Shown one piece after another: positions 3,476-59,643 of a stretch of DNA of 64,000 nt (positions are counted from its first letter, which is position 1; every line of letters begins with the position of its first letter). The position numbers were made by a program, and so were the translations under genes. The notes below the pieces were generated by a model, which saw only the letters and a program-made list of their open reading frames with translations, was not told where the DNA came from and did not search any database. The DNA comes from Gammaproteobacteria bacterium (lineage in GTDB: Bacteria; Pseudomonadota; Gammaproteobacteria; Steroidobacterales; Woeseiaceae): positions 18,459 through 82,458 of the forward strand of contig JAACFJ010000009.1 in the NCBI GenBank assembly GCA_009937505.1, in the 5' to 3' direction.

Positions 3476-3922
3476 ATGAAACGATTTCTCCCTGTCCTGG
3501 TCATTTTCGCAGCCGTCTACCTGTACCAGGAATTCGACAGCCCGGCGGATCAGGCGTATTCACAGCAGGTGCCGGCGGCTACCAGCACCGGACCCTCCGC
3601 CAGCATCGGCACCAGCACCGCCCTCGTCGACGGCCGCCAGGCAAAGGGTTCGGGTACCGTCGTGCGCGTGCTCGCGGACGATAACGACGGCAGCCGACAT
3701 CAGCGTTTCATTCTGCGCCTTGCCAGCGGAAGGACGCTGCTGATTGCGCACAACATTGACCTGGCACCGCGAATCAACGGGATTCGCGAGGGTGACGCCG
3801 TCCAGTTCTACGGCGAGTACCGCTCCAACTCCAGGGGCGGTGTAATCCACTGGACGCACCATGACCCTGCAGGTCGGCATCCGGACGGCTGGCTTCAGCA
3901 TCAGGGCCGTGTTTACCAGTGA
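3476..3922 (+). CDS. DUF3465-like secreted protein
   Basis: GSGTVVRVLADDNDGSRHQRFILRLASGRTLLIAHNIDLAPRI...GVIHWTHHDPAGRHPDGWLQHQGRVYQ pattern. Confidence 0.7.
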   Translation: MKRFLPVLVIFAAVYLYQEFDSPADQAYSQQVPAATSTGPSASIGTSTALVDGRQAKGSGTVVRVLADDNDGSRHQRFILRLASGRTLLIAHNIDLAPRINGIREGDAVQFYGEYRSNSRGGVIHWTHHDPAGRHPDGWLQHQGRVYQ

Positions 3923-4013
3923 TCCTCGTTGCCGGAAGCGGATCAACGGCAGCATAGCGACGCACACAGCGCCAGGACTGGAAAAAAAGCTCTACCCCTG
4001 TTCTCATGAAACC

Positions 4014-5762
4014 ATGAAGCTGCTCAAGACCCTTGCGTTGCTGGCCCTCGTGGCCGGTTGCGCCGAAGACCCCGGCGAGCCCGCCCAACCAGAGGACGCC
4101 GGCCTGATATTGATCAACGCCCGGGTGTATACGCTCGACTGGGACGAGCCGGGGCCGGATGGCACCGTGATGCCCGGTGCGCCCCGCGACGCGGGTGGCT
4201 GGCACCCGGATGGCCAGGCCATCGTAATCCGGGATGGTGAAATCCTGTTCGTCGGCAGCAGCGTCGATGCGATGCAGTTCAAAGGCGACTCTACCCGGGT
4301 CGTCGACCTCGCTGGCGCCACGGTGATTCCGGGCCTGGTCGATTCGCACACGCACGTCTTCGGCCTGGGCGCGCTGCTGGACCAGGTCAACCTCGTTGGC
4401 GTCGAGACCGAGGAAGAAGCGGTCGCGCTGATCGTCGAACGCGCGAAGTCCGTGCCGAAGGGCGGATGGATCGTCGGCCGCGGCTGGGACGAAGGCGCCT
4501 GGGCGAACCGCTACCCGGACAAGGCGCTGCTGACGGCGAAGGTTCCCGACCACCCTGTGTTCATGGACAGCCTGCACGGTTTCGCCGGCTGGGGTAACCA
4601 GATAGCGCTCGATGAAGCCGGCATCACCGCGGAATCGGTCGTGCCGGTCGGCGGGGAGATGCGTCTTGGCAGCGACGGCCAGCCGACCGGACTGTTCCTG
4701 AACCAGGCCGTCCAGATGCTGAGTTCCGCCGTTCCCGAACCGTCGCGGGCGACGCTTACGAAGCAACTCCTGCTCGGCCTCGAGCAAATGGCGGCCGACG
4801 GCTACACAGCGGTACATGACGCCGGCCTGGATTCGCAGCAGATGAGCGTTCTCGAAGAACTCGAGGCACAGGGCAGATTGCCGATCCGCGTTTACGCCAT
4901 GCTGTCATTGCGCGACGAGGAACTGATTCGCAAATGGATCGGGAAAGGTCCGGACACCGACACGGACAGCATGCTCGTTACCCGCACCGTCAAAGCCTAT
5001 TACGATGGCGCGCTGGGTTCCCGTGGTGCGCGCCTGCTTTACGATTACTCGGACAAGCCGGGGCACCGCGGCGTCAGCGGCGACGAATACGGCTTCAATG
5101 AGGCGCTGAATGCGGAGGCGATGAAAGCCGGGTTCCAGGTAGCGATCCATGCTATCGGCGACGCGGGTAATCGCGAGGCGCTCGACATACTGGAGGCCGT
5201 ATTTGAAGAGGACCCTTCAACCGCGGCGAACCGTCATCGCATCGAACACGCGCAGGTCATCAGTCCCGAGGATATTCCGCGCCTGGGCCGGCTGGGCATC
5301 ATTGCGTCGATGGAGCCGCCGCATGCGATGGAAGACAAGGCCTGGGCCGAAGACCGTCTTGGGTCGGAGCGAATCCTCGGCGCCTATGCCTGGCGTTCGC
5401 TGCGCGAGACCGGCGCCCGGCTGACCTTCAATGCTGATAATCCCGGCTCCGACCACAACATCTTTTACGGCCTGCACTCGGCGATCACGCGGCAGGACAA
5501 AGATGGGCATCCCGAAGGTGGCTGGTACACGGAGCAGAGGGTGTCCGTTGAAGAAGCGGTGCGCGCGTACACGGCGTGGTCCGCCTACGCGAGTTTTCGG
5601 GAAGACGATACCGGCATCATCGAGCCCGGCCGGTGGGCGGACCTGACGGTCATGAATATCGACCCGTTCGTCGTCGCCGATCAGCAGCCCGGCCGGCTCC
5701 TGGCGGGGCAAATTATCATGACGATCATCGGCGGCAACATCGTCTACGAAAGGGGACAGTGA
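4014..5762 (+). CDS. Amidohydrolase (YtcJ-like), predicted lipoprotein
   Basis: MKLLKTLALLALVAGC lipobox, VIPGLVDSHTHVFGLG metal motif, long amidohydrolase body; start trimmed from 3861. Stop lies in the repeat element (ERGQ*). Confidence 0.85.
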   Translation: MKLLKTLALLALVAGCAEDPGEPAQPEDAGLILINARVYTLDWDEPGPDGTVMPGAPRDAGGWHPDGQAIVIRDGEILFVGSSVDAMQFKGDSTRVVDLAGATVIPGLVDSHTHVFGLGALLDQVNLVGVETEEEAVALIVERAKSVPKGGWIVGRGWDEGAWANRYPDKALLTAKVPDHPVFMDSLHGFAGWGNQIALDEAGITAESVVPVGGEMRLGSDGQPTGLFLNQAVQMLSSAVPEPSRATLTKQLLLGLEQMAADGYTAVHDAGLDSQQMSVLEELEAQGRLPIRVYAMLSLRDEELIRKWIGKGPDTDTDSMLVTRTVKAYYDGALGSRGARLLYDYSDKPGHRGVSGDEYGFNEALNAEAMKAGFQVAIHAIGDAGNREALDILEAVFEEDPSTAANRHRIEHAQVISPEDIPRLGRLGIIASMEPPHAMEDKAWAEDRLGSERILGAYAWRSLRETGARLTFNADNPGSDHNIFYGLHSAITRQDKDGHPEGGWYTEQRVSVEEAVRAYTAWSAYASFREDDTGIIEPGRWADLTVMNIDPFVVADQQPGRLLAGQIIMTIIGGNIVYERGQ

Positions 5763-5816
5763 CTTTAAGTGCCAGGCAAAGTCCGCCTTGCCTGGCACTT
5801 AAAGTCACTGTCCCCT
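5751..5816. repeat. GGGGACAGTGACTTTAAGTGCC palindrome
   Basis: aggggacagtgactttaagtgccaggcaa-loop-ttgcctggcacttaaagtcactgtcccct, between convergent genes. Confidence 0.97.
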
Positions 5817-6336: not shown

Positions 6337-8868
6337 TTGACCGCGCTACTGCACGCCTACGACGAGCTGGTCCTGAAGCGACCTGCGATTACGTTGTTCG
6401 TGATTGCTCTCGTAGTGTCGTTTTTCGCGTATCACGCACCGGCATTCAGGCTTGACGCTTCCGCCGATTCGCTGGTGCTCGAAAACGACGAGGCACTGCA
6501 ATACTACCGTTCAATCAGGGCGCGTTACGGCTCGGACGACTACCTGATCGTCACTTACACACCGAACCAGGACCTTTTCAGTCCAGCCGTCCTGGACGAT
6601 CTAAAGGCATTGCGCGACGAGATCGCGGCGATGGATAACGTCGAGTCCGTCATCAGCCTGCTGGACGTACCGCTCATCCAGAGCCCGCCGATCAGCCTCG
6701 CCGAACTGAGTGAGGAAGTACCGACGCTCGAGAGTCCGCGAACCGACACCGCGCTGGCGAGAGAGGAATTTCTCTCAAGCCCGATGTATCGCAACCTGAT
6801 CATCGGCGCGGATGGCCGGACCACGGCGATGCAGATCAACTTCCGTCGCGATGACACCTGGCATCGCTTGCTGAAGCAACGCAACGAGTTGCGAGAGAAG
6901 AACCTGAGCGGCGAACTGACCTCCGGGGAGCAGGCGACGCTTGGCGCCGTATCGGCACAGTTTGATGCCCATAGCCTGGTAATGCGGGACCAGCAGAGCG
7001 CTGATATCGCCGAGGTCCGGAGCATCATCGATCGTCATCGCGACTCCGCCGAATTGCATCTTGGCGGCGTGCCGATGATCGTGTCCGACTCGATCGACTT
7101 CATCCGGCACGACCTGCTTACCTTCGGCATAGGCGTACTGTGCTTCCTGATCGTGATCCTGGCCGTGGCGTTCCGCAAACCGCGCTGGGTCGTCCTGCCC
7201 ATGCTGGCATGCGCGGCAACCGGCATCATCATGGTCGGCTTCCTCGGATTCGCAGGTTGGCCGGTGACGGTCGTCTCATCCAACTTCATTTCGTTGCTGC
7301 TGATCCTGACGCTGTCACTTGCCATCCACCTGGTCGTCCGCTATCGCGAACTGCACGAGGCATCACCCGATGCCGACCAGGGAGTGCTGGTCAGGGAGAT
7401 GGTCCGCGCCAAGACCGTGCCGTGCCTGTATACCGCGATTACGACGATGGTGGCTTTCGGTTCGCTGCTGTTCAGCGGGATTCGGCCGGTCATCGACTTC
7501 GGCTGGATGATGGCCACAGGCATCGTGGTCGCCTTCCTGCTGGTCTTTAGCCTGGTCCCTGCTGCCCTGATGTTCTTGAGCCCGGGGGAACCTCACCGGC
7601 GCAGGGACCTGACGGACAAGATCACCCACTTTTTCGCGCGGGAGATTCAGGCACACGGCGCAGCCATCCTGACGGCCTCGGGCGTGCTGGCGGTACTCAG
7701 CGTTGCAGGGATGACTTTTCTCACGGTCGAAAACCGCTTTATCGATTACTTCAAGGAATCCACCGAGATCTACCGCGGCATGGAAATCATCGATCGGGAA
7801 CTCGGCGGCACCACACCGCTGGACGTCATCGTCGATGCCCCCACCGAGTTCTTCGAGCGCCAGGAAGAGATATGGGATGACCCGCTGCTCGCCGAGTTTG
7901 GGATGGATGATGCAGAGAGTGGCGGTATTACCGCGACCAGCTACTGGTTCAACACGAGCAGGCTGCCGGACGTATCCGCAATGCACGAGTACCTGGATTC
8001 GCTGCCGGAGACCGGCAAGGTACTGTCCGTCGATACTGCAGTCGAAATGCTGCGGCAGATCGAGGAGGAGATCGTATCGGACAACTTCGAGCTGTCCGTC
8101 CTCTACAACAAGCTGCCGGACGAGATCCGGGAGATCCTGCTTCGCCCGTACATGTCCGAGGACGGCAACCAGGTCCGTTTCGCCATACGTGTCTTCGAGT
8201 CCGACCCCTCGCTGCAGCGCGAAGTCCTGATGCGGAATATCCGTCACCAGTTAACGGACGGATTCGGTTACGACGAAAGCCAGGTGCACCTCTCCGGAAT
8301 GCTGGTGCTGTACAACAACATGCTGCAGAGCCTGTTCCGCTCCCAGATACTGACCATCGGGGTGGTGTTCCTCGCCATCCTGTTCATGTTTGCAGTCCTG
8401 TTCCGCAACCTGAAGATGGCCGCTATCGCGATCATCCCGAACGTGTTCGCGGCCTTACTCGTTCTGGGGTTGATGGGTTGGCTCAGCGTGCCTCTCGACC
8501 TGATGACCATCACCGTCGCCGCCATAAGTATCGGCATCGCCGTTGACGACACGATCCATTACGTACACAGGTTTACCCGGGAATTCGACAAGGACCATGA
8601 CTACTGGGCAGCGGTTGACCGCAGTCACGCGAGCATCGGCCGCGCCATGTACTACACGACAGTAACGGTAACGCTGGGATTTTCGATCCTCGCGCTGTCG
8701 AATTTCGTCCCGACCATCTATTTCGGCTTGCTGACAGGATTCGCCATGCTGGTCGCGCTACTGGCCGATCTGACATTGCTACCGCTGCTGATCGTGCGCT
8801 TCAAACCCCTCTCTCAAAAGGGGACAGTGACTTTAAGTGCCAGGCGTCGGGAATTAGGGGGACAGTGA
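6337..8868 (+). CDS. RND/MMPL superfamily exporter
   Basis: 843 aa, two blocks of TM helices, GIAVDDTIHYVHRFTREF motif. C-terminus GTVTLSARRRELGGQ is encoded by repeat DNA. Confidence 0.85.
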   Translation: MTALLHAYDELVLKRPAITLFVIALVVSFFAYHAPAFRLDASADSLVLENDEALQYYRSIRARYGSDDYLIVTYTPNQDLFSPAVLDDLKALRDEIAAMDNVESVISLLDVPLIQSPPISLAELSEEVPTLESPRTDTALAREEFLSSPMYRNLIIGADGRTTAMQINFRRDDTWHRLLKQRNELREKNLSGELTSGEQATLGAVSAQFDAHSLVMRDQQSADIAEVRSIIDRHRDSAELHLGGVPMIVSDSIDFIRHDLLTFGIGVLCFLIVILAVAFRKPRWVVLPMLACAATGIIMVGFLGFAGWPVTVVSSNFISLLLILTLSLAIHLVVRYRELHEASPDADQGVLVREMVRAKTVPCLYTAITTMVAFGSLLFSGIRPVIDFGWMMATGIVVAFLLVFSLVPAALMFLSPGEPHRRRDLTDKITHFFAREIQAHGAAILTASGVLAVLSVAGMTFLTVENRFIDYFKESTEIYRGMEIIDRELGGTTPLDVIVDAPTEFFERQEEIWDDPLLAEFGMDDAESGGITATSYWFNTSRLPDVSAMHEYLDSLPETGKVLSVDTAVEMLRQIEEEIVSDNFELSVLYNKLPDEIREILLRPYMSEDGNQVRFAIRVFESDPSLQREVLMRNIRHQLTDGFGYDESQVHLSGMLVLYNNMLQSLFRSQILTIGVVFLAILFMFAVLFRNLKMAAIAIIPNVFAALLVLGLMGWLSVPLDLMTITVAAISIGIAVDDTIHYVHRFTREFDKDHDYWAAVDRSHASIGRAMYYTTVTVTLGFSILALSNFVPTIYFGLLTGFAMLVALLADLTLLPLLIVRFKPLSQKGTVTLSARRRELGGQ

Positions 8869-8934
8869 CTCTTGGTGCCAGTCACTTCTGGTCCCTGTCA
8901 CCCTTCTTGCCTGGCACTTAAAGTCACTGTCCCC
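8820..8934. repeat. Compound palindrome with diverged internal unit
   Basis: Outer arms 8820-8845 and 8909-8934 enclose ggggacagtgactcttggtgccagtcacttctggtccctgtcaccc; ends followed by TTTTT. Confidence 0.95.
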
Positions 8935-11683
8935 TTTTTGCGGGTTCGACACGCGCGGCGCAGAACTTGAATTCGGGGATTTTGCCGTAGGGATCGAGCT
9001 CCGCGTTGGTCAGCAGGTTCGCGGCCGCTTCCGTGTAGCAGAACGGGATGAACACCATGCCTTCCGCCACCTCGCGGTCGAGCCGCACGCGCAGGGTAAT
9101 CGAGCCGCGCCGTGTCGACACCCGGATAAAATCTCCCGGCGCGAGTTTCATCGTCTCGATATCGCGCGGTGACAGGCTTGCCACCGCTTCCGGCTCGAGC
9201 TCGTCAAGGTTGCCCGCACGCCGCGTCATGGCGCCGGTATGCCAGTGTTCGAGCATCCGCCCGGTGGTCAGGATCATCGGATAGTCGTCATCCGGCAGCT
9301 CGTCCGGCGGCGTAAGCTCGGTTGGGACGATCCTGGCGCGGCCGCTCGTCGTCGGAAAACCGGCACCGAAGATGATGTCGTTCCCCGGTTTGTCGGGTGC
9401 ATCGCAGGGATAGGTCACCGCGTCCTCGCGCTCGAGGCGCTCCCAGGTGATATGCGCCAGCGACGGCATGATCTCCGTCATCTCCGCAAAGACGTCCCGG
9501 GGGTGCGTGTAGTTCCAGTCCAGCCCCATACGCCGCGCGATCTCCTGCGTGATCCACCAGTCCTGGCGCGTGCCGCCCGGCAGCGGCACGACTTCGCGGG
9601 CGAGCTGGACCTGCCGGTTGGTATTGGTGAAGGTGCCGGTTTTTTCCGGGTGCGCTGATGCCGGCAACACGACGTCCGCCTGCCAGGCCGTCTCGGTGAG
9701 GAAGATATCCTGCACCACGAGGTGTCCCAGCTTGGCCAGCGCCGCACGCGCATGCGCCTGATCCGGATCCGACATCGCCGGGTTCTCGCCCAGGATGTAC
9801 ATGGCTGTGATCTCACTGGCGTGGATCGCATTAACGATCTCGACGACAGTGAGGCCACGTTTCGGGTCCAGCTCCGTTCCCCAGAAATCCTCGTACCTCT
9901 GCCGGTTGTCGTCGTCCTCCACCGACTTGTAGTCGGGGAAGAACATCGGGATCAGCCCGGCGTCCGACGCGCCCTGCACATTGTTCTGCCCGCGCAGCGG
10001 ATGTAGTCCGGTTCCGGGGCGACCCACATGCCCGGTGATCAGCGCCAGCGCGATCAGGCCGCGGGCATTGTCCGTGCCGTGCACGGACTGCGAGATGCCC
10101 ATGCCCCAGAAGATGATCGAGTTGCTTGATGTCGCGTACAGGCGCGCCACGTCGCGGATGGTCTGCGCTTCGATGCCACAAACCTCGGCCATCTTCTCCG
10201 GCGGAAACGCTTTGACCCGCTCGGCGAGTTCGTCGAAGCCTTCGGCGTACGATTGCAGGTAATCCCGATCGTAGAGCTCCTCTTCGACAATCGTGTGGAT
10301 CATTGCGTTCAGCAACGCCACGTCCATGCCGGCCTTGAACTGCAGGTTGTAGCTTGCGTGACGGCCCAGCCCCTGCCCGCGCGGATCGGCAACGATGAGC
10401 TTCGCGCCCTGCTTCGCCCTGTTCTTTAAATACGTGGCCGCAACGGGATGGTTCTGCTCCGGGCGTGCACCGATGACGATGATGCAGTCGGCTTCATCTG
10501 CCGCGGTAAAAGGTGCGGTGACCGCGCCCGAACCGATGCCCTCCATGAGCGCCGCAACCGACGATGCATGGCAGAGGCGCGTGCAGTGATCGACGTTGTT
10601 CGTGCCGAAGCCGGTCCGCACCAGCTTCTGGAAGAGGTAGGCTTCCTCGTTCGACCCCTTTGCCGAACCGAATCCGGCAAGCCCTGACGCACCCTTCTCG
10701 TCGAGCGCGTTTTTCAGGCCCGTCGCCGCCCTGTCCAGCGCTTCCTCCCAGCTTGCCTCGCGGAAGTGAGTCCACGGGTTGGCCGGATCGAGCTGCAGCG
10801 CCCCATCCTTGGGCGCGTCGTCACGACGGATCAAAGGTTTGGTCAGGCGATCCGCATGGGTGATGTAGTCGAAACCGAACCGACCCTTCACGCACAGGCG
10901 CTGTTCGTTCGCCGGGCCGTTGCGCCCGTCGACGTACAGGATCTTGTCATCCTTGACGTGCGCCCGTGTCTGGCAGCCAACACCGCAATACGGGCACAGC
11001 GTATCGACGTGGCGGTCTTCGAACTCGCGTCGCGTGCCGGCATCGTCAAGCAGGTTCGCTTCCATGAGTGCGCCGGTCGGACAGGCCTGCACGCATTCGC
11101 CACAGGCCACGCAGGTCGAATCTCCCATCGGGTCGTCGAAGTCGAACACGATCTTCGACCCGTGACCGCGATACGCCATGCCGATGACGTCGTTCACCTG
11201 CACCTCGCGACAGGCGCGGACACAGAGATTGCAGTGGATACAGGCATCGAGATTGACGGCGATCGCGACGTGGCTGGCATCGCTGTCGGTCTTCGGCCGA
11301 GCGGGGAAGCGGCTGTCCGTTACGCCCATTGCATCTGCCCAGGTCCAGAATTTCGAGTCCGGATCGTGCGCCGTCTCGCGTGCCGGCTGGTCGGCGACCA
11401 GCATTTCCATGACCATTCGCCGTGCGCTCTTCGCTTCGTCCGAGGCGGTGTTGACGACCATGTCGTGCACCGGCTTCCTGATGCAGGACGCGGCGAGCAC
11501 ACGTTCCCCCTTGATCTCGACCATGCAGGCGCGGCAATTGCCGTCGGCACGATAACCCGGCTCAGGCGCGTAACAAAGATGCGGTATTTTGGTGCCCTGA
11601 CGCTGCGCCACCTGCCAGATGGTTTCGTCCGGGGACGCCTCGACCTGCTTGCCGTCCAGGACGAAGGTGATCTTCTCCGTCAC
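8924..11683 (-). CDS. Formate dehydrogenase alpha subunit (NuoG-like N-terminus, molybdopterin)
   Basis: 2Fe-2S ferredoxin N-terminus, 4Fe-4S clusters (CIHCNLCVRACREV, CVACGECVQACPTGAL), CPYCGVGC, and DHCTRLCHASSV catalytic region with Cys. GTG start at 11683 overlaps the upstream stop. Stop lies in repeat (KRGQ*). Confidence 0.9.
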   Translation of the reverse strand: MTEKITFVLDGKQVEASPDETIWQVAQRQGTKIPHLCYAPEPGYRADGNCRACMVEIKGERVLAASCIRKPVHDMVVNTASDEAKSARRMVMEMLVADQPARETAHDPDSKFWTWADAMGVTDSRFPARPKTDSDASHVAIAVNLDACIHCNLCVRACREVQVNDVIGMAYRGHGSKIVFDFDDPMGDSTCVACGECVQACPTGALMEANLLDDAGTRREFEDRHVDTLCPYCGVGCQTRAHVKDDKILYVDGRNGPANEQRLCVKGRFGFDYITHADRLTKPLIRRDDAPKDGALQLDPANPWTHFREASWEEALDRAATGLKNALDEKGASGLAGFGSAKGSNEEAYLFQKLVRTGFGTNNVDHCTRLCHASSVAALMEGIGSGAVTAPFTAADEADCIIVIGARPEQNHPVAATYLKNRAKQGAKLIVADPRGQGLGRHASYNLQFKAGMDVALLNAMIHTIVEEELYDRDYLQSYAEGFDELAERVKAFPPEKMAEVCGIEAQTIRDVARLYATSSNSIIFWGMGISQSVHGTDNARGLIALALITGHVGRPGTGLHPLRGQNNVQGASDAGLIPMFFPDYKSVEDDDNRQRYEDFWGTELDPKRGLTVVEIVNAIHASEITAMYILGENPAMSDPDQAHARAALAKLGHLVVQDIFLTETAWQADVVLPASAHPEKTGTFTNTNRQVQLAREVVPLPGGTRQDWWITQEIARRMGLDWNYTHPRDVFAEMTEIMPSLAHITWERLEREDAVTYPCDAPDKPGNDIIFGAGFPTTSGRARIVPTELTPPDELPDDDYPMILTTGRMLEHWHTGAMTRRAGNLDELEPEAVASLSPRDIETMKLAPGDFIRVSTRRGSITLRVRLDREVAEGMVFIPFCYTEAAANLLTNAELDPYGKIPEFKFCAARVEPAKRGQ

Positions 11684-13296
11684 GACAACTCCTCCGGGAA
11701 ATACTTGATGAGACACAGCAGCGGGTTCGGCGCCGCCTGCCCCAGCCCGCAGATCGAGGCCGAAACCATAGTGGCGCTGAGTTCGACCAGCAGCTCCCTG
11801 TCCCACGCCTGCTCCGACATCAGTTTCACGGCCTTCTCGGTACCTACCCTGCAAGGCGTGCACTGGCCGCAGCTCTCGTCTTCGAAAAATCGCATCAGGT
11901 TGAGCGCCGCGTCCCGGATGCTGTCCTTGTCGGACAACACGACCACCGCCGCCGAGCCGATGAAACCACCGTGTTCTTCGAGAGTGTCGAAATCGAGCGG
12001 TATGTCCGCCATGCTCGCGGGCAATATTCCGCCCGATGCGCCGCCCGGCAGGTAGGCTTTGAAGCTGTGCCCGTCCGCCATGCCGCCACAATATTCGTCG
12101 ATCAACTCCTGCGCGGTTATCCCTGCAGGTGCGAATTTCACGCCGGGCTCCTTCACTCTTCCCGAGACCGAGAAGCTGCGCCTGCCCTGGCGCCCGTTAC
12201 GACCCTCGCCGGAAAACCAGGCCGGGCCCCGCTCGAGGATGTCGCGCACCCAGTAGAGCGTTTCGACGTTGTGAACGAGCGTCGGCCGCCCGAACAGGCC
12301 CACCTGGCTCGGGTAAGGCGGCTTGTGGCGCGGCAGGCCACGCTTGCCCTCGATGCTTTCCAGCATCGCGGACTCTTCGCCGCAAATGTAGGCACCCGCG
12401 CCGCGACGCAGGTGGATCGCGCGATCGCCATTGAGACCTTCGCGTTCAAGGTCGCCGATGGCTTCCCTGAGAATCTCGTTGATGGCTGGATATTCGTCGC
12501 GCAGGTAGATGTAGATCGCCTGCGCATCAACCGCCCAGGCGGCGATGAGCATGCCCTCGAGGAAACGATGCGGGTCGCGTTCCAGGTGGTAACGATCCTT
12601 GAAGGTGCCCGGCTCACCCTCGTCCGCATTCACCGCCAGCAGGCGGGGTCCGGCCTCCTGCCGTACGAAGTGCCATTTGCGACCCGCGGGAAAGCCCGCA
12701 CCGCCGAGACCGCGCAATCGGGAGTCCTCCATCGATTTGATCACGTCGTCGACCGATCGCGAGCCTGCGAGGCAGTCCCGCAATAATGTGTAGCCGCCTT
12801 CCTTTTCATAGGCATCGAAGCGCACGTGATCGGGGATCTCGGGATGATGATTGCCGCTCTGCAGTGCTGCGGCGATCGAGTCAGCATCGGCATAGTCGAC
12901 GTGCCGGTGCCCCACCTCCGCCACCGGCGCCGTGTCGCAGCGCCCCATGCAGGGAGCGCGGACAACCCGCACATCGGCGCCAAGCTTTCCGGGGAGCGAT
13001 TCGAGCAGCGCATCGCCGCCGGAAAACGCGCAGGTCAGGCTGTCGCAGACGCGGACCGTGACGGCCGGCGGCGCGGTTTCGCCGTCCAGGACGATGTCGA
13101 AATGGGCGTAAAAGGACGCGACTTCGTACACCTCGGCCATGGATAAGCGCATTTCGGCCGCGAGCGCCTGCAGGTGCGCGGCGCTGAGGCGCCCGTACTT
13201 GTCCTGAACAAGGTGCAGATGTTCGATGAGCAAGTCGGGCGAACGCGAGCGGTCACCGAGCAGCGTCGCGATTTCCTCGTGCGCCGTCGGGTCCAT
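11680..13296 (-). CDS. NuoE/NuoF-like fusion, NAD-linked formate dehydrogenase diaphorase subunit
   Basis: N-terminal NuoE-like domain (SFYAHFDIV...CDSLTC...APCMGRCDTAP) then NuoF (RGLGGAGFPAGRKW, ADEGEPGTFKDR, CGEESAMLESIEGKRG, ESCGQCTPCRVG). Confidence 0.9.
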   Translation of the reverse strand: MDPTAHEEIATLLGDRSRSPDLLIEHLHLVQDKYGRLSAAHLQALAAEMRLSMAEVYEVASFYAHFDIVLDGETAPPAVTVRVCDSLTCAFSGGDALLESLPGKLGADVRVVRAPCMGRCDTAPVAEVGHRHVDYADADSIAAALQSGNHHPEIPDHVRFDAYEKEGGYTLLRDCLAGSRSVDDVIKSMEDSRLRGLGGAGFPAGRKWHFVRQEAGPRLLAVNADEGEPGTFKDRYHLERDPHRFLEGMLIAAWAVDAQAIYIYLRDEYPAINEILREAIGDLEREGLNGDRAIHLRRGAGAYICGEESAMLESIEGKRGLPRHKPPYPSQVGLFGRPTLVHNVETLYWVRDILERGPAWFSGEGRNGRQGRRSFSVSGRVKEPGVKFAPAGITAQELIDEYCGGMADGHSFKAYLPGGASGGILPASMADIPLDFDTLEEHGGFIGSAAVVVLSDKDSIRDAALNLMRFFEDESCGQCTPCRVGTEKAVKLMSEQAWDRELLVELSATMVSASICGLGQAAPNPLLCLIKYFPEELS

Positions 13297-13433: not shown

Positions 13434-13491
13434 GGGGACAGTGACTTTAAGTGCCAGGCGACTCCGCCTGGCACTTAAAGTCACTGTCCCC
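13434..13491. repeat. GGGGACAGTGACTTTAAGTGCC palindrome, 58 bp
   Basis: Identical to 14616-14673, including the ACTC loop. Confidence 0.97.
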
Positions 13492-14594
13492 TAACTAAAT
13501 ACGGCGACGGGAGCACCCAGCACATCAATATCCGGCTCGATGCCGAGGCCCGGGTCGTCCGATGCGCTCATATGACCCGCCACGCGCTGCGGTGCGCCCG
13601 TCGCATTACGAACCGTGACGTAGCTGTTGAAATCGGTCGCCGAGAATCTGAGAGCCTCCGGCGTCGAATGGGCAAGGTGGGCTATCGCCGCCGTGATGAT
13701 GTCGCCGCCCCAGCTGTCTTCGATGGTCATGGGCAGGTTCAGCGTCACGCACAGGTCACGAATCTGGCGCGCCCTGGTCAGCCCCCCAACCTTGGAGATC
13801 TTCAGATTGATGACATCCATTGCACCATCGCCGTGGCCGCGCATCAGTGCTTCTATGTCCGTGATGTTCTCGTCGAGGATGAACGGCAGGGGCGTGTTCC
13901 GCCTGACCGTCAGGCAATGCTCGTAAGAGCGGCACGGCTGCTCGATGTAGACGTCGCGATCGCGAACCGCGTTGACAACACGAATCGCATCATCGACACG
14001 CCAGCCAGTGTTGGCATCAGCGACGAGCACTTCCGCTTCTGTCAGTACATCGGCCGCCGCGTGAATGCGTTGGACATCGTCTGCAGGGTCGCCGCCGACC
14101 TTGAGCTGGAACTTGGTGTAGCCATCGTCGCGATGTTCCGCAACGTTTTCTGCCATCTCGTCGGCCGGGCGCTGACTGATCGCGCGATAGAGCGCAACAC
14201 TTTCACCGAATTTTCCGCCCAACAAATCGCAGACCGATTTTCCGCAGACCTTGCCGAGCAGGTCCCAACACGCCATATCGATGGCGGACTTGACGTACGG
14301 GTGGCCGAGCAGCGCCCGGTCCATGAGCTGGTTGATCGGGCCGATCGCCGTCGGGTCCTGTCCGATCAGGCTGCCGGATAATTCCGCGATCCCGGCCCGC
14401 GCACCCGGGCCGAATGCCGGCAGGTAAAACGGTCCGAGGGGGCACACTTCGCCGTATCCCGACAGGCCGTCATCGGTGACCAACTCGACGACGGTGCTGT
14501 CGAATACTTCGACGTATTTGCCCTCCGACCACGAGTAACGCCCCTCGACGAGAGGCAGGTCGATCTGGTACACGCGGATTTCAGAAATTTTCAC
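13491..14594 (-). CDS. Mandelate racemase/muconate lactonizing enzyme family (enolase superfamily; cis-3-hydroxyproline dehydratase-like)
   Basis: VKISEIRVYQIDLPL...KFQLKVGGDP...VADANTGW...ILDENI...NLKISKVGGLTRARQI. GTG start at 14594; the longer ORF to 14810 runs through a repeat and is rejected. Confidence 0.8.
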   Translation of the reverse strand: MKISEIRVYQIDLPLVEGRYSWSEGKYVEVFDSTVVELVTDDGLSGYGEVCPLGPFYLPAFGPGARAGIAELSGSLIGQDPTAIGPINQLMDRALLGHPYVKSAIDMACWDLLGKVCGKSVCDLLGGKFGESVALYRAISQRPADEMAENVAEHRDDGYTKFQLKVGGDPADDVQRIHAAADVLTEAEVLVADANTGWRVDDAIRVVNAVRDRDVYIEQPCRSYEHCLTVRRNTPLPFILDENITDIEALMRGHGDGAMDVINLKISKVGGLTRARQIRDLCVTLNLPMTIEDSWGGDIITAAIAHLAHSTPEALRFSATDFNSYVTVRNATGAPQRVAGHMSASDDPGLGIEPDIDVLGAPVAVFS

Positions 14595-14615
14595 GTCTTC
14601 GTGTTTCCCGTAATT

Positions 14616-14673
14616 GGGGACAGTGACTTTAAGTGCCAGGCGACTCCGCCTGGCACTTAAAGTCACTGTCCCC
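14616..14673. repeat. GGGGACAGTGACTTTAAGTGCC palindrome, 58 bp
   Basis: Identical to 13434-13491. Confidence 0.97.
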
Positions 14674-14785
14674 TTGTTCGAGCTCGACCAGCAGATCCTT
14701 CTTGTCGAACTGCTCTCCGATCCGCGCGAAACACACGGATCGCAATCTCGCTGCGATTGGCGAAGAGGATCCTGATACACATCAT
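14674..14785 (-). pseudogene. Remnant of a biotin-dependent carboxylase: biotin carboxylase N-terminus joined to biotinyl-domain C-terminus
   Basis: Reverse strand reads MMCIRILFANRSEIAIRVFRA then, in another frame, RIGEQFDKKDLLVELEQ; these resemble the first and last segments of pyruvate/acyl-CoA carboxylases. Confidence 0.55.
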
Positions 14786-14887
14786 TTCTTGGAGAATGTG
14801 ACCAGATCACTCTCGCAGCAAGGATTCACTGAACCCGAGAGTGCCACACTCATCGCTCCGGACAAAAGTTACGAACGAGACAGTTGC

Positions 14888-20037: not shown

Positions 20038-20042
20038 TGAAT

Positions 20043-20136
20043 CAGGGGACAGTGACTTTAAGTGCCAGGCCAGGGCAGTTAGGGGACAGTGACTTTAAGT
20101 GCCAGGCCCGTTCGCCTGGCACTTAAAGTCACTGTC
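20043..20136. repeat. Compound GGGGACAGTGACTTTAAGTGCC palindrome, 94 bp
   Basis: Left arm 20045-20070, spacer, then full palindrome 20082-20136; identical to 30846-30939. Confidence 0.95.
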
Positions 20137-22071
20137 TTCCCGCTGCCCTGATTCGGCCGCCTGCTCCTCGGCTTCGACGTCGTCCAGCGACGGCGGCACC
20201 CAGCCACGGTCAAGGCGACTGCCGAACGCCGCGCTTGTGCCTCGCATGGCCTGCTCATAGCGTTCGAGGAACTTCTTCGTCTTTTCGACGTACTCGGCAT
20301 TTTCATGCGCCGGGATGTCCGGGTTGAATACGGACGCCAGTTGGTACATCTGCTCACGGTCGTTTAACACGAATCCCCGCACCTGGCGCTCCGCATCGTA
20401 AGGGTGAACGCCAAGTGCCTCCAGCGCCGAACGCCCCGCCCGCAGCGAGCTGTCGAAGTGCTCGCGGATGATGTCGCGCGCACCGGCATTCCAGAGTTCA
20501 TAGACATGGTGACGGTCGAGGGCACGCACAACGATATAGACGTGCGGATAATTCTCGGTCACGTACCGCACGAGCTCCGTCGCACTCTCGCGCTCGTCGA
20601 TGGCGATAACCAGCATTTTCGCTTCCCCGATACCGGCCGCGTGCAACAGGTCCGGCCGCATCGCGTCGCCGAAATAGACCTTGATGCCGAACTTCCGCAG
20701 CACCTCGAGTTGCTCCGACTGGTAGTCGAGAACCACTGTCTTGAAGCCGGCGGACAACAGGATGCGATTGACGATGCCGCCGAAGCGGCCGTGCCCGGCG
20801 ACGATCACGCTGCCCTGCTCCTCGATCTCGTCCGCTTGCCGGCTCCCGGTTGCAGCAAACCGCGGCGCGATGAGCTTATCGTAAATGATGAAAAGGAGCG
20901 GCGTCAGCAGCATCGACAGCGTGACAACCAGCAGCAGCTGTTGGGCGAGCGCTGTCGGAATGACGGAGCTCGCCACCGTAAACGAGAGCAGAACGAAACC
21001 GAATTCGCCGGCCTGGGCAAGTCCGAGCGTAAACAGCCAGCGATCGGCGCCGGTGATGCTGAAGATCCTGCTCAAGGCATAAAGTATTAGAGCTTTGAGG
21101 GCGATCAGGCCGAGCGTCATCGCGACGACGCCGCCGAGGTTTGCGAACAGCAGGTCGAAACGGATTGCAGCACCGACAGTAATGAAGAACAGGCCGAGGA
21201 GCAGCCCCTTGAACGGGTCGATGTCGCTCTCGAGTTCGTGGCGGTACTCGCTGTTCGCGAGCACGACGCCCGCAAGGAAGGTGCCTAGCGCGGGTGACAG
21301 GCCAACGACGATCATCAACAGCGCGATGCCAATGACGAGTAGCAGTGCGAATGCCGTAAACAATTCGCGCAAGCGGGCGATTGCGATAAAGCGAAACACG
21401 GGCCGCGTCAGGTAGCTGCCGCCGACCACGACCAGGCCGATTGCTCCGACGGTCACGAGCGCCCTTTGCCAGCCGTCCAGACGCTCGACGAGGCTCATGC
21501 TGCCGTGATCCCCCTCGCCGCCGTGCTCCGCTGATGCGACGGCCATGTCCGCCAACTCCGGCAGCGCGAGCAGCGGAATGAAGGCGAGCATCGGGATGAC
21601 GGCGATGTCCTGGAACAGCAACACCGAGAAGCTCGACTGACCGCCGTCGCATTTCATCAGGCCCTTTTCATTCAACGTCTGCAGGACGATGGCGGTCGAG
21701 GACAGCGACAGGACCAGGCCGACCGCCAGTGCAATCGACCAGGGCTGGCCCAGCAGCATCGCGATACCCATGATCGCTGCAGCGGTCACGGCCACCTGCA
21801 ACCCGCCGAGTCCGAGCAGCTTGTCCCGCATAGACCACAGCATGCGCGGCTCGAGTTCGAGACCGACGAGAAACAGCATCATGACGACGCCGAACTCGGC
21901 AAAGTGCTGGATGCTGACGACGTCGACGTGCAGCTGCTGCAGCAACGGACTGATGGCGATACCTGCGATCAGGTAGCCGAGCACCGAACCCAAACCCAGC
22001 CTCGAGGCAATTGGCACTGCGACAACCCCCGCCGCGAGGAAAAGGAATGCCAGCAGAAGGAATCCGTCCAC
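20095..22071 (-). CDS. Kef-type K+/H+ antiporter (CPA2) with TrkA-N domain
   Basis: GFLLLAFLFLAAGVVAVPIASRLGLGSVLGYLIAG, VIVAGHGRFGGIVNRILLSAG. C-terminal DSDFKCQANGPGT is repeat-encoded. Confidence 0.85.
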   Translation of the reverse strand: MDGFLLLAFLFLAAGVVAVPIASRLGLGSVLGYLIAGIAISPLLQQLHVDVVSIQHFAEFGVVMMLFLVGLELEPRMLWSMRDKLLGLGGLQVAVTAAAIMGIAMLLGQPWSIALAVGLVLSLSSTAIVLQTLNEKGLMKCDGGQSSFSVLLFQDIAVIPMLAFIPLLALPELADMAVASAEHGGEGDHGSMSLVERLDGWQRALVTVGAIGLVVVGGSYLTRPVFRFIAIARLRELFTAFALLLVIGIALLMIVVGLSPALGTFLAGVVLANSEYRHELESDIDPFKGLLLGLFFITVGAAIRFDLLFANLGGVVAMTLGLIALKALILYALSRIFSITGADRWLFTLGLAQAGEFGFVLLSFTVASSVIPTALAQQLLLVVTLSMLLTPLLFIIYDKLIAPRFAATGSRQADEIEEQGSVIVAGHGRFGGIVNRILLSAGFKTVVLDYQSEQLEVLRKFGIKVYFGDAMRPDLLHAAGIGEAKMLVIAIDERESATELVRYVTENYPHVYIVVRALDRHHVYELWNAGARDIIREHFDSSLRAGRSALEALGVHPYDAERQVRGFVLNDREQMYQLASVFNPDIPAHENAEYVEKTKKFLERYEQAMRGTSAAFGSRLDRGWVPPSLDDVEAEEQAAESGQREDSDFKCQANGPGT

Positions 22072-30809: not shown

Positions 30810-30845
30810 TCATTGATTCAGCGAGTTACCGGGGCGTCGGGGAAC

Positions 30846-30939
30846 CAGGGGACAGTGACTTTAAGTGCCAGGCCAGGGCAGTTAGGGGACAGTGACTTTA
30901 AGTGCCAGGCCCGTTCGCCTGGCACTTAAAGTCACTGTC
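30846..30939. repeat. Compound GGGGACAGTGACTTTAAGTGCC palindrome, 94 bp
   Basis: Exact 94-bp match to 20043-20136. Confidence 0.95.
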
Positions 30940-31999
30940 GGCTCGTTACACGCAGTTCAACGCGCCGGCTCGCGGCCAGGCCGGACGCGCTCATGTCGGA
31001 CGCGTCTTTATGCGACTCGCCGTAACCGCGTGTGGTCATCCGCGACGAATCGACGCCCGCCTGCGCGAGGTAGTTACGAACGGCTTCCGCGCGACGCTCC
31101 GAAAGCTTCATGTTGTAGCTTTCGGGTCCGCGTGAATCCGCGTAGCCCACAATCTCGACCTGCACGTCGGGATGGCGCTTCAGGGTCGACGCGGAATCAC
31201 CGAGCATGCTTTTCGCTGTCGCAAGGAGCACAGCGGAGTCGAAGCCGAAGTAGACGTTCCTCAGCTTGACTATCTCGCAACCGCTGGCATCAACCTTAAC
31301 GCCTGCAGGGGTGCCGGGACACTGATCCCGGTCGTTGGCAACGCCATCTCCATCGCTGTCCGCCGGGGCAGCTGCAACAATGCCTGCACCGGTATCCGGT
31401 TCAGGTTCGCTGGCTGCGACCATCGGAGCAGCCGACCCGCCACCGAAGTTGTACTGGATGCCGATCGAACCGACCTGGTCTGTCAGAGAATTGTCGCTGT
31501 CGAAAGCATGCCGCAGGCGCCACTCGGCTCGCAGCGACCAGGGGCTGTCTCCAAAACGGACTTTCAGCCCGAGACCACCCGTTGCCGTCGCATTACTGGC
31601 CGTCGAGTCGGCAGGCGGCAGTCCACCGAAATCCGGAGTGCCAACATCAGCCCGCAAATAACCGAGCCCACCGATAACGTACGGGGAAAACAGGCTGTCC
31701 GGAAGGAAGTTACCGATGACGTTGAAGCCCAGTTCCAGGTGCTCCTGGCCCGGAAAGCCGTCAATATCGTGATAGCCGAACAGGCCCTCGAGCCAGAGGT
31801 GCTTGCCCATCTCCCGGCCGACCTGGACCTGCCCGCCTGAAAAGGAATCGTCGATCTTTCGGTCAGGATCATCGTCGGTATAGGCGATCGACGGTGAAAC
31901 GTACCACTCGCCCTCCTCCGCCTGCGCGGCCAACGGGGCCAGTGGAATCAATACGAGGGCCAATAGTTTGAGTAGTCTGGTCACGTCACTGTATGTCAT
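30932..31999 (-). CDS. OmpA family outer membrane protein
   Basis: Signal peptide, beta-barrel N-terminus, DSDGDGVANDRDQCPGTPAGVKVDASGC, OmpA domain YADSRGPESYNMKLSERRAEAVRNYL. Stop lies in repeat (SRQ*). Confidence 0.9.
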   Translation of the reverse strand: MTYSDVTRLLKLLALVLIPLAPLAAQAEEGEWYVSPSIAYTDDDPDRKIDDSFSGGQVQVGREMGKHLWLEGLFGYHDIDGFPGQEHLELGFNVIGNFLPDSLFSPYVIGGLGYLRADVGTPDFGGLPPADSTASNATATGGLGLKVRFGDSPWSLRAEWRLRHAFDSDNSLTDQVGSIGIQYNFGGGSAAPMVAASEPEPDTGAGIVAAAPADSDGDGVANDRDQCPGTPAGVKVDASGCEIVKLRNVYFGFDSAVLLATAKSMLGDSASTLKRHPDVQVEIVGYADSRGPESYNMKLSERRAEAVRNYLAQAGVDSSRMTTRGYGESHKDASDMSASGLAASRRVELRVTSRQ

Positions 32000-32137: not shown

Positions 32138-32199
32138 TAGGTGACAGTGACTTTAATTGCCAGGCGTCTCGGTCTGGCAATTAAAGTCACTGTCCACTA
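32138..32199. repeat. Variant palindrome (TTTAATTGCC / GGCAATTAAA)
   Basis: ggtgacagtgactttaattgccag...ctggcaattaaagtcactgtccac; the same G-to-T change is mirrored on both arms. Confidence 0.9.
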
Positions 32200-34762: not shown

Positions 34763-34820
34763 AGGGACAGTGACTTTAAGTGCCAGGCGCCTTCGCCTGG
34801 CACTTAAAGTCACTGTCCCC
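34763..34820. repeat. GGGGACAGTGACTTTAAGTGCC palindrome
   Basis: Near-perfect inverted repeat between convergent genes; followed by TTTTATTATT. Confidence 0.95.
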
Positions 34821-47883: not shown

Positions 47884-47962
47884 GGGGACAGTGACCTAAA
47901 GTGCCAGGCAAGAATTTGGGGACAGTGACCTGGAGTGCCTGGCACTTTAGGTCACTGTCCCC
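47884..47962. repeat. Compound variant palindrome (GTGACCTAAAGTGCC / GGCACTTTAGGTCAC)
   Basis: Left arm, then a second left-like unit (ggggacagtgacctggagtgcc), then the right arm; arm-matched substitutions. Confidence 0.9.
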
Positions 47963-54479: not shown

Positions 54480-56816
54480 ATGATCGAGCCCGACAGCCCA
54501 TCGCCCTGGCCGAAGATCGACGATGCAATGGTCGCGTTCCTGCTCGACGCCCGTGACGGCTTCGAGGCCTCGCTGCTGCGGGACTGGGTGGAAACCCGCA
54601 AGCCACACGCCGGTTCGGGTTCACGGTATTCGTTTATCGAACTACCAAGGGGCCGCGCCGACGACTGGCTCGCAGCGCTGTCGGAAGAAGACGACGCTGT
54701 CTGGTTGCAGCCTTTGCGTATCGCTTGGCTGCCCGCACCGGACAGGCGCCACGACCGTCCTCTGCTGGACTTTTTTCACGGCCGCATCGCCGAACCCGGC
54801 AAAGCCCGGCGGCGGTGGCTCGCGAAGCACCGGCCCGAGAGGCTCGCCTGCATCGTCGGCGATGGTGCCTACCTCGAGGAATTGCGTGAGCGACAGGCCA
54901 AGGCCGCCGTCGAAGACGATGCATTTGCAGAGTTTGCCGCCAACCAGGCGCTCATTGCACTGGAGCGCTCGGAGCGCATTTTCCGTGGTGCGCGCTACAA
55001 AGTCCCGCGCATCCTGCCCGGTGAAGTTTTCGCCAATGCGGACTTTCGAAACCTGATCGCGAATGTTGCGCAGCAGCGCGACCGGCCCGTGGGGGACGTG
55101 CTCCAGCAGGCCGAACGCTACCTGCGGGAAATGGCGGCAACACAGACGCCGTTTACGCTCGAGATGATCAACACGCTGTATCGGTTCGCGTGCCGCAGCC
55201 ACCACGATTCGACGATCGACGTGGACGAGTCGCAGCTGGAAAGAGTCGCAGAGACGATGGCCACGCGTCCGGTCATCTTCCTGATAAGTCACAAGTCGAT
55301 GCTCGACACGATGGCGCTGTCGCTGGTGCTGTTCGGTGCAAATCTGCCGCTGCCGCTGACCTTCGGCGGCATCAACCTGAACACGCCGGGTCTCGGCGCC
55401 CTCGCCCGCCGCAGCGGCATCATCTTCCTGCGGCGCTCGTTCCAGGACAACGAGATCTACAAGTCTACGTTTCGCCGCTACATCGACTACCTGATCGAAA
55501 AACGCTTTTCGCTGCTCTGGGCACTGGAAGGAACCCGCTCACGCACCGGCAAGTTGCTGCCGCCGCGATTCGGTCTGTTCAATTACGTCTTCGAGTCGAT
55601 ACAGCGGACCCGGCTCTACGACGTGACGTTTATTCCCGTCAGCGTTGCCTACGACCAGATCACCGAGGTCGAGGACTACTCGATCGAGCAGCGCGGCCAG
55701 AGGAAGAAGCCGGAAGGGATCACATGGCCGCTCCGCTTCCTGCGGCGTGGTCGGTCGCGCGGCCAGATCCATTTGCGGTTCGGCGATGGGCTGACCGTCA
55801 GGGAACTGGTCGAGCCAGCCGAACTCGAGGCCGGCATCGACGATCAACAAAAGCAGACGCTCGTCGCGACGCTGGCATTCGAAGTTGCGGTGCGCATGAA
55901 CGCCGCGACGCCGATCACGTCCACGGCGATAATCACGCTGATCCTGCTTGCCGGAGGCACCCGTGCACAGAGCGTGGCCGAGATCCAGGCGCTCGCCCGG
56001 GCCGGTGCCGCGCTGATCCGGCGCCGTCACCTGGAGATTGTCGGGCGCTCGAACTTTCAGGATGCGGATGCTGTAATCGCAACGCTCGCCGAACTCCACG
56101 AGACCGGCATCGTCAGTTACCTCGACGAAGGCACCGAGCGGCTCTATACGATCAGTCCGGACCAGCACCTCAATGCCGCCTACTACCGCAACACGGCGAT
56201 TCACTATTTCATTCTCGACGCCTTTGTCGAGATCGCGCTGCTCGATGCGGCAGCCGACACTACGGACCCGTGCGAGGCTTTCTTCACACGCACGGACGAA
56301 CTCAGGGAACTGTTCAAGTTCGAGTTCTACTTTCCGCGGCGCGCGGGATACCGGTCGGAAGTCGAGAAGCGCGTGCGCGAGCGCTTCGGCGGCTGGGAAG
56401 ACATCGTGCGACGAGACGAGGCCAGCCTGCGCGATTCACTGAACGACGTCCAGCTACTCGTTGCACACGGTGTACTGCGTTCCTTCGTCGACGCCTATCG
56501 CGTCGTCGCCAGTGTGCTCGAAAGTGCCGGCTCGGACGCCGTTGACGATGACGGCAGCTTCCTCACGAAATGCCTGAAGACGGGCAAACAGCAACTGCTG
56601 CAGGGGCGCGTGTTCTCGGCCGAGTCGATTTCGAAGTCGCTTTACCAGACCGGGCTACAGCTTGCGAGCTACAGAGGACTGCTTGCGGCCAACCGGGCAC
56701 CGGAACGCCAGGAGTTCCACCAGGAATTTCGCCACATCACGAATCGGCTCGACGCGATACTCGCGATTACGCTGGCCAAGGGCGAGGACGCGGAGTCCCA
56801 GTTCCGGGGACAGTGA
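54480..56816 (+). CDS. PlsB-like glycerol-3-phosphate acyltransferase
   Basis: 778 aa; acyltransferase blocks VIFLISHKSMLDTMAL, GIIFLRRSFQDNEIY, EGTRSRTGKLLPPRFGL. Stop lies in repeat (FRGQ*). Confidence 0.85.
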   Translation: MIEPDSPSPWPKIDDAMVAFLLDARDGFEASLLRDWVETRKPHAGSGSRYSFIELPRGRADDWLAALSEEDDAVWLQPLRIAWLPAPDRRHDRPLLDFFHGRIAEPGKARRRWLAKHRPERLACIVGDGAYLEELRERQAKAAVEDDAFAEFAANQALIALERSERIFRGARYKVPRILPGEVFANADFRNLIANVAQQRDRPVGDVLQQAERYLREMAATQTPFTLEMINTLYRFACRSHHDSTIDVDESQLERVAETMATRPVIFLISHKSMLDTMALSLVLFGANLPLPLTFGGINLNTPGLGALARRSGIIFLRRSFQDNEIYKSTFRRYIDYLIEKRFSLLWALEGTRSRTGKLLPPRFGLFNYVFESIQRTRLYDVTFIPVSVAYDQITEVEDYSIEQRGQRKKPEGITWPLRFLRRGRSRGQIHLRFGDGLTVRELVEPAELEAGIDDQQKQTLVATLAFEVAVRMNAATPITSTAIITLILLAGGTRAQSVAEIQALARAGAALIRRRHLEIVGRSNFQDADAVIATLAELHETGIVSYLDEGTERLYTISPDQHLNAAYYRNTAIHYFILDAFVEIALLDAAADTTDPCEAFFTRTDELRELFKFEFYFPRRAGYRSEVEKRVRERFGGWEDIVRRDEASLRDSLNDVQLLVAHGVLRSFVDAYRVVASVLESAGSDAVDDDGSFLTKCLKTGKQQLLQGRVFSAESISKSLYQTGLQLASYRGLLAANRAPERQEFHQEFRHITNRLDAILAITLAKGEDAESQFRGQ

Positions 56817-56862
56817 CTTTAAGTGCCAGGCGCCTCGCCTGGCACTTAAAGTCACTGTCCCC
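56806..56862. repeat. GGGGACAGTGACTTTAAGTGCC palindrome between convergent genes
   Basis: 57-bp near-perfect inverted repeat; contains stop codons of both flanking genes (56814-56816 plus, 56852-56854 minus). Confidence 0.97.
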
Positions 56863-57784
56863 GAATTCCGTACATCTGGTCGGGTGTAAGAACCTCGGGA
56901 AAGCGCTCCCGCAACAGGCGCCGCGCCTCGTAACACAGGTGGCAGTGATCGGCGTAACCGTCTTCGTGGGACAGGCCGTAACGGCGCACGATCTCGGCGG
57001 GGCCGCCGGCGAGCAGAGGCCCAACAATCGGGTGCTCGTCGGCATCGTAGTCGCGCATGATCTCGGGCAGCGGGCGCTGTAACAGGTTGCCGATGGAAAT
57101 GCCCTGGCAAACATGCAGGTTGCCGAATGGGTCGACGTGCACACGTTGGGGGGCGCGCAGGTCCTCCCAGGGACAACGATCGAACTGCTCCCAGGGCTTG
57201 GCTGCAACACGCGATGCGAGCTTTTCCGCAGCCCGGCCCCGGAACAGGACAGCGGACTCACCGGACGGCAGCTTGCCCGCAGAACCGGCGACGTCAGCAG
57301 CTTCGGGTGCGGCCACACTGATGAAGTCCACCGGTATACCGAGCTTGCGCGCCGCAGCGCGAGCGATATCGGGACAGGTCACGCCGTCCTCACAGCCGTG
57401 ATAAGCATCGCTGCTGATGGATAGATCATCGATGTAGCCGACAAAAGGCTGTAACTGCTTCTCGGCCTCGGCCTCCGAAGTCGCCCAGTAGGCGTTGCTG
57501 ACGATGCCGACCCTGAAGCCGGACTCCCGGGCGAGGCGCACGCCGGCAACGAGTGTGTCGTAATAAAGAAATGCCTCCCCGCCCTCGAAGTAGATCCACT
57601 CGATGGTGCCCAGCGCCCTGGCCTGCTCGAGAATGCGCTCGATGGTGTCCAGTGTCATCGTGCCGGTCTGCGACGGCCCGCCCCAGACGAAACAATGTTC
57701 ACACTCGTAGTTGCACTCGTACGTCAGTAACAGGTGCAAGCCGGAGAGACGCCGGGCACGGGGGGCTTTCCTGGATTCCGTCAT
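56852..57784 (-). CDS. Radical SAM protein
   Basis: LLLTYECNYECEHCFVWGG (CxxxCxxC), IYFEGGEAFLYYD, C-terminal Cys motifs. Stop lies in repeat (IRGQ*). Confidence 0.85.
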   Translation of the reverse strand: MTESRKAPRARRLSGLHLLLTYECNYECEHCFVWGGPSQTGTMTLDTIERILEQARALGTIEWIYFEGGEAFLYYDTLVAGVRLARESGFRVGIVSNAYWATSEAEAEKQLQPFVGYIDDLSISSDAYHGCEDGVTCPDIARAAARKLGIPVDFISVAAPEAADVAGSAGKLPSGESAVLFRGRAAEKLASRVAAKPWEQFDRCPWEDLRAPQRVHVDPFGNLHVCQGISIGNLLQRPLPEIMRDYDADEHPIVGPLLAGGPAEIVRRYGLSHEDGYADHCHLCYEARRLLRERFPEVLTPDQMYGIRGQ

Positions 57785-59559: not shown

Positions 59560-59604
59560 GGGGCACAGTGACTTTTGTTGCCAGGCACCAAAAGTCACTG
59601 TGCC
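59560..59604. repeat. Short variant palindrome (GGCACAGTGACTTTT / AAAAGTCACTGTGCC)
   Basis: Inverted repeat between convergent genes; arm-matched C/G change and inner deletion. Confidence 0.85.
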
Positions 59605-59643
59605 TTGCTCAATCGGAGAGCGGCCCCGGTCGATACGATCATC

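Follow-up and report, generated by a model that had tools for sequence, protein, structure and literature searches.

A single palindrome provides the last codons and the stop codons of two convergent genes, which encode a PlsB-like glycerol-3-phosphate acyltransferase and a radical SAM protein (rSAM), in the 64,000-nt stretch of DNA analysed here (the window). Its arms recur throughout the draft genome. We put the probability at roughly 0.78 that the palindrome is a non-autonomous repeat copy of the TIRYT/TIRtron kind, that such copies accumulated at gene 3' ends, and that this one ended plsB first and rSAM afterwards, through loss of the intervening DNA or replacement of the palindrome.

A palindrome at the ends of two convergent genes

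The palindrome is perfect over 59 nt (56805-56863), with two arms of 28 bp that are complementary throughout and a loop of 3 nt (C-GGGGACAGTGACTTTAAGTGCCAGGCG / CCT / CGCCTGGCACTTAAAGTCACTGTCCCC-G). The first-pass annotation of this DNA had placed it at 56806-56862; the palindrome itself is real, and its true extent is one base more on each side. Its predicted folding energy is -63.8 kcal/mol as RNA (z = -10.7) and -38.1 kcal/mol as single-stranded DNA (z = -14.8). A chance palindrome was ruled out by the recurrence of its arms: an arm 20-mer matched 24 times in the window (0.00 expected), and an arm 22-mer matched 50 times in the whole draft genome, while the reversed control gave 0 matches. 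We also rejected a reading as an intrinsic terminator, as the T tract is absent; a search for a GC hairpin followed by a T tract found 0 in 56600-57100. An Rfam search of the palindrome gave sub-threshold microRNA-precursor hits only, which is uninformative for a perfect hairpin.

The two open reading frames carry GPAT_C/Acyltransferase and Radical_SAM Pfam domains, respectively. Read inward from either side, the sequence CGG GGA CAG TGA lies entirely within the palindrome, and the R, G, Q and stop codons of both genes are thus repeat-encoded (Table 1). The proposal of the first-pass annotation that one palindrome supplies the stops of both convergent genes is therefore confirmed, both proteins ending in RGQ, and the stop coordinates that it gave are exact.

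Table 1. Features of the window, numbered from its first nucleotide
Feature	Position	Strand	Basis
PlsB-like glycerol-3-phosphate acyltransferase, ends SQFRGQ (RGQ and stop repeat-encoded)	54480-56816	+	ORF, Pfam, orthologue ends
TGA stop of plsB-like gene, within left arm	56814-56816	+	
Radical SAM protein (rSAM), ends MYGIRGQ (RGQ and stop repeat-encoded)	56852-57784	-	ORF, Pfam, orthologue ends
TGA stop of radical SAM gene, within right arm	56852-56854	-	
Palindrome, dispersed repeat copy	arms 56805-56832, 56836-56863; loop 56833-56835	.	sequence and folding
Left outer flank AGTTC, counterpart of family outer motif AATT[A/T]	56800-56804	.	position frequencies, 78 ends
Right outer flank AATT, the family outer motif adjoining GGGG	56864-56867	.	
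Repeat copy; ends amidohydrolase ORF 3861-5762	5752-5815	.	
Four-armed copy; stops of convergent ORFs 6337-8868 (+, LGGQ) and 8924-12091 (-, KRGQ)	8820-8934	.	
Copy at 3' end of cis-3-hydroxy-L-proline dehydratase-like ORF (13491-14810, -)	13434-13491	.	
Repeat copy; 58-nt core same as 13434-13491	14616-14673	.	
Three-armed copy	20045-20139	.	
Three-armed copy; ends OmpA-like ORF 30932-31999 (-, TSRQ)	30848-30942	.	
Diverged copy, matched changes in both arms	32140-32197	.	
Copy between convergent ORFs, each stop 5-6 nt off	34763-34820	.	
Three-armed copy, CTAAA variant	47884-47962	.	
Short diverged copy (GGCACAGTGAC)	59561-59605	.	

To locate the old stops we aligned both proteins with their orthologues, as the first-pass annotation had suggested. 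PlsB orthologues without the repeat, from 11 genomes, end in LARADDR, LARAEDR, LAKAND and similar residues; the window protein ends in LAKGEDAESQFRGQ and is 7-9 residues longer. In 11 of 12 genomes the rSAM orthologues end in DQMYG plus 0-2 residues (PG, HG, TS, DS, TN, DI or none) and stop 2-4 residues before the window protein, which ends in DQMYGIRGQ. The one exception (G082) has a longer, unrelated tail. Repeat-free orthologues do not share the terminal residues, and because they end differently and earlier, the comparison supports displacement of both original stops by the repeat, either through insertion into the old 3' ends or through their replacement, as had been suggested from the sequence. 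Truncation of either protein was rejected on the basis of orthologue lengths, which point to short extensions only.

About ten other genes of this genome have been ended by the repeat likewise. The amidohydrolase ends in YERGQ, where its orthologues mostly end in YER or else in YERN (+2 residues in most comparisons), and NuoN ends in LGGQ here and in the relative G080 versus LGG in the relative G034 (+1 residue). Orthologues of an asparaginase-like ORF are 2-3 residues shorter, and the length difference for formate dehydrogenase-like orthologues ranges from -3 to +2. Two more window proteins, those of ORFs 6337-8868 and 20095-22071, exceed their counterparts in the relatives by 7-11 residues; some of these relatives also have repeats there. 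These comparisons show that the repeats shift stops by a few codons and do not remove domains, and we infer that the C-terminal extensions are nearly neutral. Many predicted C-termini ending in GQ in these genomes are repeat-encoded and should not be taken as conserved protein motifs.

In one further genome (G012, L105 near 3110-3145) the rSAM stop is directly followed by CCGGGGACATTCTGC, which resembles the repeat end of another family.

A dispersed repeat family close to stop codons

When mismatches were allowed, the arms grouped into about 39 sites across the genome. Most sites are inverted pairs of arms and several have three or more. The arms are conserved across sites and the loop varies in length from 3 nt to >100 nt. 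The outer end of the family reads AATT[A/T]GGGGACAGTGAC..., with AATT[A/T]GGGGACAGTGACTTTAAGTGCCAGGC as the consensus of the aligned ends. Within sites the two arms coevolve: there were 15 matched changes, as compared to a mean of 2.0 and a maximum of 8 in 2000 shuffles. Two composite copies (20039-20136 and 30842-30939) share 99% identity across 98 nt and have different flanks, which suggests that they were copied as one unit; together with the shared core at 13434 and 14616, such near-identical copies point to recent copying within the genome.

The strong stop-codon bias of the family was measured in a census of these sites, drawn from the genome stretches around pattern matches and annotated with a simple codon-score set of gene calls. 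The two arms that flank the transposase gene (see below) were entered as separate sites, and since 5 of the 39 sites are single-armed, 5 of the 78 ends are actually inner ones; this does not affect the conclusion. A gene 3' end is faced by 53 of the census sides and a 5' end by 24. At least one gene 3' end is faced by 36 of the 39 sites, and 17 sites lie between convergent genes. A stop codon falls at -11 to +20 nt in 28 of the 39 sites, versus about 7.8 expected from random noncoding placement. Twelve genes stop at the first TGA of the repeat (gap -11), their products ending in GQ or, in the OmpA-like protein, in SRQ; in a further gene, ORF 6337-8868, this TGA serves as the stop from within an inner arm. 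Of the 78 ends, 38 have stops in two or three frames within -9 to +12, as compared to 3.2% of random 21-mers, and only 7 have them in all three.

These counts raise the question of whether REP-like repeats come to lie within about 20 nt of stops through selection alone or through target choice. One possibility is that the elements are targeted to stop codons, or evolved for them, with a preference of the transposase for short AT-rich targets (TAA/AATT) and the multi-frame stops together making for a safe landing. AT-rich sites such as these would concentrate at gene ends in a genome of 60% GC. If true, the repeat would carry a built-in strategy whereby a selfish element re-terminates the gene it hits within a few codons; we regard this idea as unlikely.

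The window holds a second convergent pair with both stops in one repeat cluster (8820-8934), formed by an RND-like transporter (6337-8868) and a formate dehydrogenase-like protein (8924-12091). The hydroxyproline dehydratase-like ORF 13491-14810 reads upstream across the repeat at 14616-14673, and its true start probably lies downstream of that repeat. As many as 14 of the 39 sites fall on the window contig, which at 82 kb makes up 2.7% of the assembly (window 5740-59605 plus G000:C111:1-3400, L149). Contig C6 of G080, partly syntenic with the window contig, is also repeat-dense.

The transposase gene and comparison with known repeats

The genome contains one IS200-like Y1 transposase gene (C14:905-1588; L031:905-1588), and inverted copies of the same arm flank it (C14:805-831 on the + strand and 1575-1601 on the - strand). 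Its product scored 50.7-52.4 bits against PF01797 (Y1_Tnp; cut-off 23) and 81.3 against NCBIfam REP_Tyr_transpos (cut-off 80 bits), and its HUH motif reads HVH. The closest named relative is from an uncultured Woeseiaceae MAG (L250). The transposase ORF itself terminates (SPGT) within its own downstream arm.

Of the 82 transposase loci compared (81 relatives and the present one), 36 have the motif GGG[GA][AT][CG]A[CG] on both sides of the gene and 55 have it on one side or both. G080 has a transposase that is 92% identical, with 83 arm matches. G034, on the other hand, has no transposase match and 7 decayed arms. Neither arms nor transposase turned up in the 70 remaining genomes of the genus that were searched, and the arm pattern was absent from a sample of 29 relatives that excluded the close relatives G034 and G080.

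The palindrome family fits the TIRYT/TIRtron class, for which the relevant passages of Di Nocera et al. 2013 (PMC3733652) and of PMC6006769 give GGGGWSAS as the terminal-repeat motif. As in the elements described there, a REP-associated Y1 transposase gene with an HUH motif lies between terminal inverted repeats, GGGGACAG is found at most outer ends, and the repeats are dispersed as pairs and groups (39 sites). With reference to the passages on subclasses in PMC6006769, the family probably belongs to TnpA-REP subclass 2.1, although a Pfam scan of the transposase found Y1_Tnp only and not the C-terminal helix-turn-helix domain typical of that subclass. Unlike the described elements, the present arms have a distinct sequence, are extended to 26-28 nt and are mutually palindromic, and within the genus the family was found in three genomes only. 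In the passages concerned, PMC3733652 reports the supply of stop codons for GTAG REPs and not for TIRs.

GTAG REPs and REPINs offer a second comparison. Like these (Nunvar et al. 2010, PMC2817692), the present family has a RAYT between inverted repeats, a repeat number that tracks the presence of the transposase, and sites near 3' ends; regional clustering of repeats, seen here as well, is reported in that study for some species, including some marine gammaproteobacteria. According to the corresponding passages of PMC3733652, the termini of GTAG REPs often provide a TAG stop to flanking ORFs, and repeats between convergent genes mostly lie <=20 bp from both 3' ends. Membership of this class was nevertheless rejected because the GTAG (or GT[AG]G) foot is absent, the outer end being AATT[A/T]GGGGACAG. 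GTAG REP units of 20-40 nt are each an imperfect palindrome, whereas by inspection no present arm is self-complementary and the predicted stem pairs one arm with another.

BOX elements of Streptococcus pneumoniae encode the stop of 36 genes, truncation not being strongly evidenced, and are enriched between convergent genes (PMC3049150). The present repeat resembles them in supplying stops and is unrelated in sequence and host. The inverted-repeat elements QMITE1 and QMITE2 of Coxiella burnetii lie over the C-terminal ends of genes, one of them extending EnhC (PMC5896051); their sequences too are unrelated to the present repeat. In the manner of a MITE, the repeat is short and non-coding, with terminal inverted repeats of a putative autonomous element, as its arms are shared with the transposase unit. 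No target-site duplication was evident in the flanks, and no clean recent empty site, which would define the target site, duplication and exact ends, was found. Among the papers listed by a literature search for GGGGACAG, the matches were incidental only.

Repeats that supply stop codons have thus already been published (GTAG REP, BOX), and the family described here, though new, is of a known kind. The orthologue-based demonstration of the old stop positions is a useful addition. Orthologues at several genes document that a transposase-associated repeat of the GGGGWSAS type has rewritten the final codons of many genes and truncated none of them.

In our view, the palindrome belongs to a REP-like repeat of the TIRYT/TIRtron kind and is one of its non-autonomous copies; judging from its enzyme class, the Y1 (HUH) tyrosine transposase most likely copies or moves the repeat via single-stranded hairpins. 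The copies lie almost exactly at gene 3' ends, where they have accumulated. Stop codons abound in the outer end, AATT[A/T]GGGGACAGTGA, so that a copy inserted at a stop codon or shortly before one would re-terminate the gene within a few codons, making such a landing nearly harmless.

A rival explanation is that the repeat is kept for a function at the 3' end, as a bidirectional hairpin that stabilises or terminates the mRNA of both genes, and is thus domesticated and not merely tolerated. The very stable stem, the coevolution of the arms, the 36 of 39 sites next to at least one gene 3' end (two in 17 cases) and the outer stem that is still palindromic in G034 are all consistent with this. However, the T tract of a terminator was not found, transposition through hairpins also predicts coevolving arms, and in G034, where the transposase has no match, the family is nearly lost, so that any need of the host for it looks weak. 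We find this explanation rather doubtful, and any effect of the palindrome on mRNA 3' ends is hypothetical.

A probable two-step history of the locus

Contig C65 of G034 shows synteny to a large part of the window and suggests the order of events. There, plsB (L192:4783-7113) ends in LAKGEDAVSRGQ (SRGQ) within a decayed palindrome whose outer stem has kept its symmetry. Next come a 241-aa ORF and, about 1 kb away, an rSAM gene whose product ends in DQMYGPG. G034 and the window share the flank GGCGAGGACGCGG, which is absent from the outgroups, and in both plsB enters the repeat in the same frame. Several further repeat sites are shared with G034 or persist there as remnants. The plsB of G080 is without the repeat, and it lies on a different contig from the G080 region that is syntenic with the start of the window. 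The 241-aa ORF (L192:7159-7884) has no Pfam match and no relative among the fetched loci.

These data suggest that the repeat probably took over the two genes in successive steps, the plsB side being older and shared with G034, and the rSAM side younger. In the simplest order, a copy of the repeat ended plsB in an ancestor shared with G034. Later, in the present lineage, the DNA between palindrome and rSAM may have been lost, or the palindrome replaced, whereupon the other arm would have supplied the last codons and the stop of rSAM; the intervening ORF of G034 points to this course. The direction of the 1-kb difference (loss here or gain in G034) is judged from a single relative, and both assemblies are draft.

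Alternatively, a single insertion between nearly abutting convergent genes could have moved both stops at once, with G034 later gaining the 1-kb segment and its ORF. This would also account for the plsB-side repeat common to the two genomes, and the extra ORF, lacking relatives in the other fetched loci, could be such a gain. On the other hand, the rSAM end of G034 is outgroup-like, and if G034 had gained the segment, its rSAM must have regained this ordinary end; we therefore regard one insertion striking both genes as less likely than two steps, and as improbable. Independent recruitment of the palindrome in G034, as a separate insertion at the same stop-codon hotspot, would fit the different core within its arms and the hotspot character of gene 3' ends, but it is highly unlikely given the flank and frame common to both genomes and the other sites that are shared or left as remnants.

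Outside this locus, the gene of an outer-membrane beta-barrel protein terminates (FYWGQ) in an unpaired single arm (L145:2935-2961), both in this genome and in G080; the arm is diverged in G034. In G080 and G034 the arm is followed by a GC hairpin and a run of T that resemble an intrinsic terminator.
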